Source: Streptomyces griseoviridis
Lineage (GTDB): Bacteria > Actinomycetota > Actinomycetes > Streptomycetales > Streptomycetaceae
DNA: 64,000 bases
Assembly (NCBI RefSeq): GCF_005222485.1
Contig: NZ_CP029078.1
Coordinates: 744,001-808,000, forward strand
Direction: 5' to 3'
The notes beneath the pieces are model-generated. The model saw only the letters and a program-made list of their open reading frames with translations. It was not told the origin of the DNA and made no database searches. The position numbers were made by a program, and so were the translations under genes. Shown one piece after another: positions 3,579 to 32,062 of this stretch; position 1 is the first letter of the stretch; every line of letters starts with the position of its first letter.

Positions 3579-4400
3579 TCAGCAGGCGTGCGCGGGGTGG
3601 CGGACGGCCCGCGCGAGGTGGCCGGCCAGGGTGCGGGGGTCCTGGGCGTGGGCGAGGTGGCCCTGTCCCGGCATGACGACCACCCTGGCCCTGGGCAGCG
3701 CGGTCGCGAACGCGGCGAACGCCTCGCCGTAGGGCGCGACGCCCTCGTTGTCGCCGCCGAGCAGCAGGGTGAGGGGCGGCAGGTCGAGGGCGGCGAGGGC
3801 CGCGAGGTCCACGGGATGGTCGTCGAGGGCGGTCAGTTCGCGGGCCAGGGGCGCGGCCAGCGGGCGCAGGACGTCCCAGACGGGGGTGGCGCGCAGGCCG
3901 TTCACGTACGCGGCGGAGAAGCCGGACACGTCGCGGTTGACGATCTCCACGGCGCGGTCGAGGTCGCCTGCGGCGTCGGCCTCCCGCAGGGCGGGCAGTG
4001 CCGCGCGGCCGAAGGGGCGGGCGACCGGCTCGTAGAGGGTGAGGGAGCGGACGGCGGCGGTGCGGCGGGCGGTGGTCTCCAGGGCGACGAGTCCGCCGAA
4101 GCTCCAGCCGAACAGGTCCACGCCCAGGTGCGGGCCCTCGGCCGCGGTGATCTCGTCGAGGACCCGGGTCAGGTCGTCGATCTCGGTGCGCAGCGAGTAG
4201 TCCGCGCCGAGCGGACCGCTGGGGCCGCGTCCGCGCCGGTTCAGCACGTAGACGGGTCCTGGGACGTCCAGCGCGTCGACGACGGGCTGCCAGCCGGCCG
4301 CGTCGGCCATCACCCCCGGGACGAGGAGCAGGGGCCGGCCCGTTCCGGCGCGGCGGGTGAGGGTGAGCGGGACTCCGTCGCGTTCCACGCGTGTCAGCAC
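3579..4400 (-). CDS. alpha/beta hydrolase
   Basis: A 273-residue alpha/beta-hydrolase fold protein. The nucleophile elbow is GWSFG with Ser100; a late acidic residue (LLLGGDNEGV) and a C-terminal His (MPGQGHLAHAQDP) complete a plausible triad. The oxyanion region near the start reads LLLVPGVMADAAGWQPV. Start GTG at 4400 is preferred over the longer TTG at 4442 because AGGAGG lies 9 nt before it. It converges on the TetR gene with a 7-nt gap. Substrate is unknown; esterase, lactonase or haloperoxidase-like activities are all possible. A lactonase next to a GBL-receptor-like regulator would be interesting but is not shown by sequence. Confidence 0.85.
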   Translation of the reverse strand: MLTRVERDGVPLTLTRRAGTGRPLLLVPGVMADAAGWQPVVDALDVPGPVYVLNRRGRGPSGPLGADYSLRTEIDDLTRVLDEITAAEGPHLGVDLFGWSFGGLVALETTARRTAAVRSLTLYEPVARPFGRAALPALREADAAGDLDRAVEIVNRDVSGFSAAYVNGLRATPVWDVLRPLAAPLARELTALDDHPVDLAALAALDLPPLTLLLGGDNEGVAPYGEAFAAFATALPRARVVVMPGQGHLAHAQDPRTLAGHLARAVRHPAHAC

Positions 4401-4514
4401 GGTGCGGTTCCTCCTGGGGAGACGGTGGGGCGGCGTGCCCAACGACCAGGTAGGCGCGGTGTAACGGCGGATTCCGGCCGGTCGCGGGTGCTTCGGCCGG
4501 GTGGAGCGCGCGAG

Positions 4515-4544
4515 GGGCCCGGCCGCTGTCCGGCGGCCGGGCCC
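4515..4544 (-). terminator. strong hairpin after the galactanase gene
   Basis: A perfect 12-bp GC stem (4515-4526 with 4533-4544) closes a 6-nt loop 13 nt past the galactanase stop. No T tract follows, as usual in Streptomyces. Confidence 0.75.
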
Positions 4545-4557
4545 TGGTGTGCGGCGG

Positions 4558-6120
4558 TCAGCGGTGGCTGAACCACGCCATCGAGGTGAGCGCCCGGTCG
4601 TCGAAGCCGAACAGGGCCTGGTTCTCCCAGCCGTTGCCGGAGGACGCGTCGGCCGGGTCCCAGCCGTTGCCGGTGACGGCGGTCCAGGTCGCCTCCCAGT
4701 AGAAGACGCCCAGGCCGCGGCCGCCCGGGACCGCCTCGACGACGTTGGCGACGGCGTTCATCCACGCCAACTGGCCCGCGGCGGAGGCCGGGTAGCCGGC
4801 GACGAGCTTGTCGGTGGTGTCGATCTGGTTGGCCAGCGAGTCGTCGCTGTCGAGACGGAAGGGGTAGGACGTCTCGGCGATGAAGACGGGCTTGCCGTAG
4901 CGCGCGGCGGTGTCGTCCAGGGTGGCCTGGGCGGCGGCGAGCGAGCCGTGCCAGAAGCCGTAGTAGGAGAGCCCGATCAGGTCGTGACTGATGCCGTACG
5001 TCTTGGCGTTGTCGAACCACCAGCGGACGGTGCCGTCGTCGCCCGCGTTGGCGAGGTGCAGGGCGACCTGGGTGCCGGTGGAGACGGCCTTCGCGGCGCT
5101 GTAGCCGGAGTTGAGCAGTCCGGCGAGCTGCGACCAGTTGGCGGTGGAGCCCTCGGACCAGAGCATGCCGCCGTTGATCTCGTTGCCGACCTGGACCATG
5201 TCGGCGGTGGTGCCCTGCGCCTTGAGGGCGTTGAGCACGTCGTAGGTGTGGTTGTAGACGTCGGTCTTCAACTGGCTGTAGGAGTGGGTGGCCCAGGCGG
5301 CGGGCTTGGTCTGCTTGCCGGGGTCGGCCCAGGTGTCCGAGTAGTGGAAGTCGACCAGCAGCTTCATGCCGGCCGCCTTGACGCGCTTGGCGACGGCCAG
5401 CACATGCGCCTTGTCGTTGTAGCCGTCGGCCGGGTTCACCCAGACCTTGAGGCGCGCGTAGTTCATGCCGGCGTTCTTCAGGATGGTGACCGCGTCGCCC
5501 GTGGTGCCCGAACTGCTCTTGTAGACACCGCCCTTCGCCTCGCTCTTGGCGAGCGAGGAGATGTCGGAGCCCTTGATCGACAGGCCGGTCGAGCCGGACG
5601 CGAACGTCAGGTCGTCGACGTTGATCCAGTTGCCCGCGTTGGCGTCGGAGGTGACGCTGATCGTGCACTGGTTGTCGGTGACGGCGATCGAGGTGACGAT
5701 CCGCACCCAACTGCTGCTGGAGACCGGCAGGTCGGTGCGCTGCTCCGGGCTGCCGCAGTTCTTCAGGGCGAGGTGGGCGGCGTTCTGCCCGCCGCCCGAG
5801 CGGACCCACGCGGTGAGGGTGTAGGTGCCGTTGGTGAGGCCCGACAGGTACTGGTACGTCTCGACCTTGTAGGCGCTCGACGCGTAGTGGGTGAGGCGGT
5901 AACTCCCGCTGTGGCCACCGGACTCGGTGTAGGAGGCGGCGGTGTCGCCGTACTCGGACCAGCCGGCCGGGACGGCCGCGCCCGCGCCGTCGGACTCGAA
6001 CCCGGCGTTGGTGAGGGTGCCGGCCGCGGTGGCGGTCTGGGCGGGCAGGGCGGTGAGGGCGAGCCCGGCCAGGAGCGGCAGCAGCAGGGCCCTGAGCGCG
6101 CGTCTGGGATGGAACATCAT
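4558..6120 (-). CDS. secreted arabinogalactan endo-beta-1,4-galactanase, GH53
   Basis: A 520-residue exported enzyme that cuts beta-1,4-galactan (pectin side chains). Residues 1-33 are a Sec signal peptide (basic MMFHPRRALR, hydrophobic core, cleavage near AQTATAA). Residues 35-175 form a jelly-roll carbohydrate-binding module (NAGFESDG start, NWINVDDLTF end). Residues 180-520 are the GH53 barrel: acid/base Glu314 in VGNEINGGMLW and nucleophile Glu416 in FIAETSYPF. The next gene upstream on the same strand is a GH42 beta-galactosidase, and a sugar ABC importer diverges beyond it, so this enzyme likely supplies galacto-oligosaccharides for import. Family and catalytic residues are clear. Confidence 0.95.
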   Translation of the reverse strand: MMFHPRRALRALLLPLLAGLALTALPAQTATAAGTLTNAGFESDGAGAAVPAGWSEYGDTAASYTESGGHSGSYRLTHYASSAYKVETYQYLSGLTNGTYTLTAWVRSGGGQNAAHLALKNCGSPEQRTDLPVSSSSWVRIVTSIAVTDNQCTISVTSDANAGNWINVDDLTFASGSTGLSIKGSDISSLAKSEAKGGVYKSSSGTTGDAVTILKNAGMNYARLKVWVNPADGYNDKAHVLAVAKRVKAAGMKLLVDFHYSDTWADPGKQTKPAAWATHSYSQLKTDVYNHTYDVLNALKAQGTTADMVQVGNEINGGMLWSEGSTANWSQLAGLLNSGYSAAKAVSTGTQVALHLANAGDDGTVRWWFDNAKTYGISHDLIGLSYYGFWHGSLAAAQATLDDTAARYGKPVFIAETSYPFRLDSDDSLANQIDTTDKLVAGYPASAAGQLAWMNAVANVVEAVPGGRGLGVFYWEATWTAVTGNGWDPADASSGNGWENQALFGFDDRALTSMAWFSHR

Positions 6121-30946: not shown

Positions 30947-30980
30947 GGGCCCCGGGAGCGGTATCCAGCTCCCAGGGCCC
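30947..30980 (-). terminator. terminator hairpin ending the permuted tRNA-like transcript
   Basis: Two arms of 13 nt (30947-30959 with 30968-30980) pair around an 8-nt loop. On the leftward strand the central pair is G-U, on the rightward strand C-A, so it folds better as the end of the leftward RNA unit, 51 nt past the second tRNA-like element. It may also serve the convergent gene ending at 30927. Confidence 0.65.
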
Positions 30981-31030
30981 AGAGGTGCCACCCACTTGCG
31001 CACACCGGCGGCGTTTAAGGCCGTGGATCA

Positions 31031-31111
31031 TTCTGAGGTCGACGCGTTCTACCTTTGAACTACCGCGCCATGAGAGAGGCACAGGAGGGACTTGAACCCC
31101 CATTCGTCGAC
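31031..31111 (-). tRNA. circularly permuted tRNA-like element 2 (3' half first; anticodon position CAG)
   Basis: Read leftward, the 3' half comes first: anticodon-stem strand GTCGACG (31111-31105), AAT, T stem GGGGG (31101-31097), T loop TTCAAGT, CCCTC, then acceptor strand CTGTGCC (31084-31078) and T77. After a 7-nt linker comes the 5' half: acceptor GGCGCGG (31069-31063), TA, D arm GTTC-AAAGGTA-GAAC, G, anticodon strand CGTCGAC (31044-31038) and loop CTCAGAA (31037-31031). Acceptor strands pair 7/7 (two G-U), D stem 4/4, anticodon stem 7/7, T stem 4 Watson-Crick plus one G-U. D-loop GG, T33-equivalent and TTC are present. Flanks beyond the open anticodon end also pair (31019-31023 with 31121-31125). 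Confidence 0.72.
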
Positions 31112-31175
31112 GATCGTCCGCGGCCGGGCGATCCGGCGTTCGGTGGCGAATGCTGAGACTTGAGCGAGAATCTGA

Positions 31176-31260
31176 GATTCAGGGGGCCGCCTCTACCGAT
31201 TGGGCCACCCCGGCACGTGTGCCGGGGGAGGGATTCGAACCCCCACCTGCCACCCCTGGT
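31176..31260 (-). tRNA. circularly permuted tRNA-like element 1 (3' half first; anticodon position GAA)
   Basis: Read leftward, the 3' half comes first: anticodon-stem strand GGGGT (31256-31252), a 7-nt variable loop, T stem GGGGG (31244-31240), T loop TTCGAAT, CCCTC, acceptor strand CCCCGGC (31227-31221), A. A 5-nt linker leads into the 5' half: acceptor GCCGGGG (31214-31208), TG, D arm GCCC-AATCGGTAG-AGGC, G, anticodon strand GCCCC (31187-31183), loop CTGAATC (31182-31176). Acceptor pairs 7/7, D stem 3/4, anticodon stem 5/5 (one G-U). The GAA sits at 31180-31178. TCAGATTC (31175-31168) pairs 7 of 8 with GAAGCTGA (31267-31260) beyond the open anticodon end. Whether it is ligated, charged or translated is unknown. 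Confidence 0.72.
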
Positions 31261-31330
31261 CAGCTTCGACTTCAGTGTCAGCTTGCGCTCATCGCGCCAC
31301 CCCCCGCTCGCACGAGGGGCGTTCAAGGGG

Positions 31331-32062
31331 CTACCTGAACAGGTAGCCGAACACGGCGTCACCCACCCGCTGGTCGGTGACCTCGGCGCCGTTGGCCTCC
31401 TCGCGGGCGTACTTGACGGCCTGCTGGAGCCTCTCGACCCGGTCGAGCAGCTCGTTGACCCGGCGGGCGGGCAGCGCGCCGGAGAACTTGACCGTGGTCC
31501 AGTAGCCCACGGGCACGTCCTCGTAGTACACCTCGACCTGCGCCGGGTGCTTCTCGGTGGCCTCCGCCTTCACGTGGTTGCGGGGCACCTTCTTGGTGCG
31601 GATGGTCCGCACCGGCTCCGTCTTCCAGGCGTCCGTCGACGGGTCGAGCGCCCACGACTCGGAGGCGTCGAGCACCGGCAGCTTCCGCACGAACGTGTGC
31701 AGATCGGTGAGTTGCTTCTCCAGGAAGAGGAGGTAGGGCACGGGGACGTCGGCGAGCAGCACGGTGCCGTCGACCACCACGTCGGCCGCGGCGGTGCGGT
31801 TGGCCCAGTCCTTCGTCGCCGTCACGTCGAACAGCCGGGTGAGGGTGGAGGCCGTGGCTCGCAGCACGTCCTCGGCCATGACCTGAACACGCGTGGACTC
31901 GGGCGGGAGTTGCTCGCCCTCCTCGTCCTTCGGCTGGTAGGTGCGGGAGATCCCGGCGAGCAACGCGGGCTTCTGCACGTCGTGGTGAGCCTGCGTCAGC
32001 TCCTGGAGCGACTTCGACTTGACGCCTTTTTCGACGGCGATGATCTGATTGAGCTTGGGCAC
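31331..32062 (-). CDS. conserved protein of unknown function linked to permuted tRNA-like RNAs
   Basis: A 243-residue soluble protein starting at GTG 32062. It opens LNQIIAVEKGVKSKSLQELTQAHHDVQKPALLAG and contains VVVDGTVLLADVPVPYLLFLEKQLTDL, a basic stretch TIRTKKVPRNHVKAEATEKH and the C-terminal helix LDRVERLQQAVKYAREEANG. I recall similar proteins as an uncharacterised, widely scattered family but know no function. There is no signal, membrane segment or nuclease/ligase motif that I can identify. A -10/-35 pair places transcription start at the GTG, so it is leaderless. The two permuted tRNA-like elements follow 70 nt after its stop on the same strand, then a terminator, so protein and RNAs are probably one transcript; an RNA-binding or RNA-processing role is inference. 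Confidence 0.75.
   Translation of the reverse strand: MPKLNQIIAVEKGVKSKSLQELTQAHHDVQKPALLAGISRTYQPKDEEGEQLPPESTRVQVMAEDVLRATASTLTRLFDVTATKDWANRTAAADVVVDGTVLLADVPVPYLLFLEKQLTDLHTFVRKLPVLDASESWALDPSTDAWKTEPVRTIRTKKVPRNHVKAEATEKHPAQVEVYYEDVPVGYWTTVKFSGALPARRVNELLDRVERLQQAVKYAREEANGAEVTDQRVGDAVFGYLFR

Follow-up and report, generated by a model that had tools for sequence, protein, structure and literature searches.

Organization of the locus

The window, by which we mean the whole 64,000-nt stretch of Streptomyces griseoviridis DNA that was analyzed, carries on its minus strand an open reading frame of 243 aa (31331..32062) that matches the Pfam family DUF7873 (PF25283) with 402.8 bits (E 7.9e-121; cut-off 27). 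Directly downstream of this gene and on the same strand, as are all elements described below, lie two consecutive RNA arms, each of them predicted to consist of a long, irregular basal stem that carries a circularly permuted tRNA-like head at its top. In both heads the elements follow each other in the order T arm, 3′ strand of the acceptor stem, short loop, 5′ strand of the acceptor stem and D arm.

Arm 1 (31152..31282), whose basal stem is internally looped, was delimited by RNAalifold on 23 of 26 bacterial loci and by pair counts on all 26. Its head contains a T arm (31228..31244) with the loop TTCGAAT, which is visible in the sequence and supported by covariation (alignment A3), an acceptor stem (31208..31227) in which CCCCGGC (31227-31221, the 3′ strand, coming first) and GCCGGGG (31214-31208, the 5′ strand) enclose a 6-nt loop, and a D arm (31189..31205) supported by covariation and RNAalifold; the acceptor strands form 7 of 7 possible pairs and covary. 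The stem strands flanking this head (31282-31260 and 31175-31152) show a 6-nt period, like roughly alternating Lys/Arg and Leu codons, which was judged by eye and recurs in many phages and bacteria. Arm 2 (30987..31147) rests on RNAalifold, pair counts and a single-sequence minimum free energy (MFE) fold that yields the same head and inner stem. Its head (31038..31111) comprises a T arm (31085..31101) and a D arm (31046..31060, D stem 4/4), both indicated by covariation, and between them an acceptor stem (31063..31084) formed by 31084-31078 (3′ strand, first), an 8-nt loop and 31069-31063 (5′ strand), with 7 of 7 pairs including two G-U. It is closed by a 7-bp “anticodon” stem (31111-31105 with 31044-31038) that runs on into the basal stem. 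An earlier note on this DNA had described two permuted tRNA-like elements in tandem from the letters alone, and a sequence check found all of the strands it named at their minus-strand positions, with the pairing it gave for both acceptor stems and for the D and anticodon stems of the second element.

A terminator-like hairpin with a GGATAC loop (30947..30980) lies 3′ of arm 2. Hairpins of at least 7 pairs with a GG(A/C)TAY loop were found at 112 of the 209 DUF7873 loci that we fetched (see below) and in 1 of 209 shuffles, and such a hairpin follows the RNA also in phages and in Calothrix.

Distribution of the gene and the tRNA-like heads

Within a set of 41 genomes of relatives, DUF7873 is present in 25 (the own genome of the window included), and in a sample of the phylum it was found in 7 of 396 genomes, all from the genus of the window. 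The family further occurs in 73 phage records, in 176 confirmed viral-contig stretches, 80 of which were fetched. Among bacterial genome contigs it was found in 240 stretches; the 80 fetched from these include Calothrix, Nonomuraea, Actinomadura and Planomonospora. DUF7873 and the heads co-occur in phages of Gordonia, Arthrobacter, Rhodococcus, Rhizobium, Vibrio, Klebsiella and cyanobacteria, as well as in bacterial genomes of Streptomyces, Nonomuraea, Actinomadura, Calothrix and others, and the heads adjoin DUF7873 homologs down to 27% identity.

Heads were detected with a simple scanner and with R1, a covariance model whose 45 input heads all come from phages and viruses. When run on the 64-kb window, R1 picked exactly the two elements of the earlier note (E 1.4e-28 and 3.1e-26), the third match having an E-value of 3.6. 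At 80 viral loci the scanner found 90 heads within 700 nt after DUF7873, distributed over 63 of the loci, against 4 in the 700 nt upstream, a single one on the opposite strand and 0.2 after mononucleotide shuffling. At 80 bacterial loci from named organisms, it found heads in 79 and two or more in 62, but no head either upstream or on the opposite strand. R1 gave 147 plus-strand matches at the bacterial loci L134-L213, all of them after DUF7873 and together covering all 80 loci, and a single minus-strand match (L143); in the bacterial set L001-L032, which includes the window's own locus, it found at least one head in 32 of 32 and two in 27, besides one weak minus-strand match (L028). The phage and virus loci number 97. 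Of these, 44 were counted through scanner heads, many of which are part of R1 itself; the other 53, which are not plainly model sequences and include near-copies of some model rows, were searched with R1, and 49 of them gave a match of at least 28 bits, none overlapping a tRNA called by ARAGORN.

Scanner and model together thus place at least one head at 205 of the 209 fetched DUF7873 loci, a number that includes near-copies and does not stand for 209 independent cases. A good head is absent from L058 and L059, which are alike, from L079 and from L122, which is cut by the contig end. The order of gene and RNA is not absolute, since in L088 the heads precede DUF7873, and in L091 they lie on the opposite strand, some 1.2 kb downstream. 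At L038, from the Microcoleus phage My-WqHQDG, a HEARO RNA and a 425-aa ORF (3950-5461) separate DUF7873 from the heads (R1 matches at 5577-5673 with 24.0 bits and at 5820-5910 with 37.9 bits), as if a mobile element had inserted before them. Five of the 32 bacterial loci (L022, L024, L025, L028 and L032) lack head 1 or have other sequence in its place, yet keep head 2 and the stem motifs on either side of head 1. Such losses would be expected if the stem had one partner and the head another.

The linkage was also examined across 150 genomes of the genus, 70 with and 80 without DUF7873. A strict pattern for the RNA core matched in 49 of them: beside DUF7873 in 47 of the 70 that have the gene, and twice in the 80 that lack it, both times in unrelated sequence. 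Since 23 of the 70, including the window's own genome, escape this strict pattern, it tests absence only in part.

Covariation and folding of the RNA

Compensatory changes in the permuted acceptor and anticodon pairings, which according to the earlier note would prove the fold, were indeed found across phages and bacteria. In the alignment of head 2 (46 sequences) 14 of 16 pairs show two-sided changes, with a covariation score of 0.866 compared to at most 0.195 when the partners are slid; all 7 acceptor pairs are affected, each in 6 to 25 of the 46 sequences. Head 1 (42 sequences) scores 0.629 compared to at most 0.169, and here too every acceptor pair shows two-sided changes, seen in 3 to 23 of the 42 sequences. 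RNAalifold, without being prompted, draws the T arm, acceptor stem and D arm in permuted order on both head alignments. Rows with linkers longer than 14 nt, fewer than 7 acceptor pairs or near-copies had been left out of the alignments A3 and A4, so that their nearly complete acceptor pairing is in part a product of selection. We therefore performed a second test, which is anchored strictly on the T arm and D arm and blind to acceptor pairing. Of 126 distinct strand pairs, 105 are complementary at 6 or 7 of the 7 positions; in 1000 partner swaps this number averaged 11.1 and never exceeded 22. The 21 failing pairs appear mostly to have wrong anchors or to be other sequence.

The heads also have an anticodon stem. 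It forms with five full pairs in 81 of 105 and 89 of 124 heads, compared to swapped means of 28 and 36, and most heads have a one-base gap between D stem and anticodon stem, as in tRNA. On 23 bacterial loci RNAalifold draws two arms, which correspond to 31282-31152 and 31147-30987 of the window; this run leaves out three loci without head 1 from alignment A6, which holds 26 of the 32 loci L001-L032 (omitted: L006, L009, L015, L018, L025 and L032). Counted over the 26 rows, two-sided changes occur in 22 of the 47 pairs that make up the basal stems plus the anticodon stem of arm 1 (score 0.304 compared to at most 0.101 after sliding). The flanks of the heads pair likewise: 80 phage and viral arms share on average 20.3 pairs, compared to 8.9 to 10.3 with swapped partners, and 160 bacterial arms 23.3, compared to 13.7 to 14.9. 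Single-sequence MFE folding forms both T arm and acceptor stem in 57 of the 80 phage and viral and in 132 of the 160 bacterial arms. Arm 2 of the window, folded alone, takes this shape; in arm 1 the acceptor stem forms and the T arm folds differently, as it also does in the fold of the whole region, whose z-score is only -1.96.

A putative ribonucleoprotein

We thus find a two-armed RNA with permuted tRNA-like heads that is linked to DUF7873 and shows no tie to TROVE, the Ro60 protein (see below). The head itself is of a known kind, that of bacterial Y RNAs. According to PMC8394870, YrlA carries its tRNA-like domain on a large basal stem, and both Rsr/Ro60 and PNPase bind it. The locus probably encodes a Y-RNA-like ribonucleoprotein that is independent of Ro and common in phages. 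In such a particle DUF7873 would take the position of Ro60/Rsr on Y RNAs and bind the basal stems. The heads might, more speculatively, pass as tRNA to a tRNA-handling protein, such as PNPase (as for YrlA), a tRNA nuclease or a tRNA-modifying enzyme, and could thereby either tether that protein to DUF7873 or draw it away from real tRNAs.

The protein has Lys or Arg in at least 97% of 69 sequences at a number of positions (e.g., 40, 116, 155, 158, 171 and 208 in the numbering of the window protein), while it is not basic overall (median pI 6.3); the protein alignment (A2) omits L072, which has a stop codon, and near-copies. Its AlphaFold2 model (pLDDT 93.1, pTM 0.69) shows long helices and two long strands, for which our searches returned no convincing fold relative, and the term DUF7873 was not found in the literature searched. 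Several phage records have the RNA within tRNA clusters, as would suit a function in tRNA metabolism in the course of infection; for the copies in bacterial chromosomes, a housekeeping or stress role of the kind proposed for Y RNAs would be fitting. RtcB is encoded in 2 of 29 DUF7873 records.

The position in phage tRNA clusters, together with a head shape that is kept while the sequence varies freely, would also suit an RNA that acts solely as a decoy, soaking up an anticodon nuclease or another tRNA-directed weapon of host or phage, with DUF7873 only protecting or delivering it; a similar, decoy-like role is raised for YrlA in the discussion section of PMC7790460. An anticodon-nuclease decoy would, however, be expected to keep its anticodon loop, a pure phage weapon leaves the occurrence in bacterial chromosomes unexplained, and two DUF7873 proteins gave no match to any PADLOC defense family. 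We consider this explanation unlikely, if the strongest of those that compete with a DUF7873 ribonucleoprotein.

Relationship to YrlA and the Ro60 system

The earlier note knew of no permuted tRNA in bacteria and made no mention of YrlA. Permuted tRNA-like domains were already known there as the heads of YrlA RNAs, and the alignment to the Rfam model shows that the T arm of YrlA precedes its D arm. The RNA of the window shares with YrlA this circularly permuted head with its capped acceptor stem, as well as a large basal stem made from the 5′ and 3′ ends of the RNA, which PMC8394870 describes as a feature of YrlA. With lax Rfam thresholds, YrlA (RF02553) is the best family at both sites of the window (26.7 and 23.8 bits, E 0.0014 and 0.0094), both well below its curated threshold of 69 bits.

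Could these then be ordinary Y RNAs of the Ro60/Rsr system, next to which DUF7873 is a chance or accessory neighbor? Three phage records with both DUF7873 and TROVE (L230, L231 and L232) speak to this point, as each has two R1 heads beside TROVE, which in single-sequence folds also sit on basal stems. Four of these six TROVE-linked heads score 29.4 to 42.4 bits with the Rfam YrlA model (the other two were not listed), and the DUF7873-linked heads of the phage loci L103 and L039 score 38.0 and 35.9 bits; TROVE-linked and DUF7873-linked heads thus lie in the same range, both below the curated threshold, which does not separate them. The same head type thus serves two different proteins, TROVE and DUF7873, and it is mainly on this account that we would put DUF7873 in a Ro-like place.

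The two systems differ in several respects. The partner gene here is DUF7873 and not TROVE, and the RNA follows the gene, whereas it lies upstream of TROVE in L230-L232. The motif TTAAAC, found in 92 of 164 head-2-type 3′ flanks of the DUF7873-linked RNA, can be counted as a further difference from YrlA. Matches to the Ro-binding sequence motif of the basal stem occur in both groups: its 5′ motif is present in 3 of the 6 TROVE-linked heads, and in 55 of 164 head-2-type and 13 of 132 head-1-type flanks of the DUF7873-linked RNA (6 and 22 after shuffling); for the Ro-binding 3′ motif the counts are 30 of 164 and 8 of 132 (9 and 3 after shuffling). In the fetched flanks of the other five of eight TROVE loci (L130-L133 and L233; four from Streptomyces, one from Calothrix) no R1 head was found. 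The own genome of the window has no TROVE match, and no TROVE match was found in 25 of 29 DUF7873 records, some of them fragments, as compared with a match in 4. Among the 150 genomes of the genus, 80 encode TROVE, 41 of the 70 with DUF7873 and 39 of the 80 without it, so that the two genes are not tied to each other. The heads stay with DUF7873 even where its homologs are highly divergent. Ordinary YrlA RNAs of a Ro60 system are for these reasons a rather improbable account of the locus, despite their best-family match and shared architecture.

Comparison with tmRNA, tRNA genes and other RNAs

Reversed acceptor strands around a short spacer are likewise a feature of the permuted, two-piece tmRNAs of bacteria. 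A rescue RNA with a peptide tag would in addition be in line with CCA following the discriminator position in about a third of the heads (58 of 172), and the codon-like period around head 1, as judged by eye, might be taken for part of a tag frame. The period motifs pair with each other as the stem of arm 1, however, and no shared start or stop was seen by eye, nor was a tag frame recognized. The window has no match to the tmRNA family (RF00023) of Rfam, and its RNA differs from tmRNA in having two heads, each with a complete D arm and an anticodon stem. A U70 opposite G3 is the signal for alanine identity. It is present in only 4 of 46 sequences of head 2 and 3 of 42 of head 1. A tmRNA-like function is therefore very improbable. 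In a separate observation, the tRNA cluster of the Gordonia phage Phendrix (L034:1072-1600) contains an Rfam tmRNA match of 89 bits that is unannotated in the record and was not called by ARAGORN.

Permuted tRNA genes are known from algae and one archaeon. With these the heads share the 3′ half in first position, the 7-bp acceptor stem, the T arm with TTC and the D arm with GG, and one might suppose that the halves are joined at the anticodon into tRNAs that decode codons, the encoded CCA of some heads being in agreement with this. The features that the earlier note had put forward as tRNA signatures at the anticodon do not hold up in the wider set: no more than 24 of 81 and 24 of 89 heads have T at position 33, and the anticodon position, read as GAA and CAG in the window, is occupied by 31 and 27 different triplets. 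Because neither U33 nor the anticodon is conserved, and because the anticodon strands, instead of closing a loop, run on into long covarying basal stems, we do not regard the heads as permuted tRNA genes. ARAGORN finds no tRNA gene in the window and Rfam, run with its own thresholds, no match, and the alanine signal is as rare as stated above. Of the earlier reading as tandem permuted tRNAs, the permuted tRNA shape is thus retained, as it is kept by covariation, and the assignment as tRNA genes, which we judge highly improbable, is given up. The CCA found in some heads would be compatible with opened acceptor loops: where it is encoded, tRNA-processing enzymes may cut the loop and produce a tRNA-like 3′ end that might be charged.

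Tandem tRNA genes do mimic a permuted element, as the 3′ part of one tRNA then precedes the 5′ part of its neighbor, and such loci (L222 and others) reach up to 53.9 bits with R1. In the own genome of the window the third R1 match lies between two tandem tRNA-Asn genes, and each of the six further matches that were checked falls in a locus that has tRNA genes, mostly in tandem. Any survey of permuted tRNA-like RNAs must therefore remove tandem tRNAs. That the heads are remnants of such an arrangement, the 3′ half of one copy followed by the 5′ half of the next, is refuted for practical purposes by the pairing of their anticodon strands (81 of 105 and 89 of 124), which unrelated halves would not show, by the covarying basal stems and the order kept across phages and phyla, and there is no tRNA gene in the window or at L007. 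The large ornate RNAs ROOL and GOLLD of phages, finally, are likewise structured RNAs near phage tRNA clusters, but their architecture differs from the tRNA-like one described here, and no Rfam match of this type was found in the window or at 12 phage loci.

Implications for phages and their hosts

The ribonucleoprotein that we propose for DUF7873 and its RNA can be taken one step further. Tentatively, and with slightly less than even confidence, we suggest an unrecognized class of ribonucleoproteins in which DUF7873 is combined with a two-headed tRNA-mimic RNA, which evolved or spread in phages beside and independently of Ro60, and which would couple DUF7873 to the tRNA-handling machinery by recruiting or blocking a tRNA enzyme during infection. 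Bacterial chromosomes might have taken it over later. In the literature searched, which lay outside bioRxiv preprints and the main YrlA papers, we found no description of the double-headed RNA, of its partnership with DUF7873 or of its spread in phages.

Y RNAs have so far been understood as RNAs of Ro60. If our interpretation is correct, the permuted tRNA head, usually in two copies, would also be coupled with an unrelated protein in phages and bacterial phyla alike, and tRNA-mimic tethering RNAs would be a wider device than this single partnership suggests. It would further provide a first lead on DUF7873 and would make it testable how tRNA-rich phages handle tRNA metabolism.
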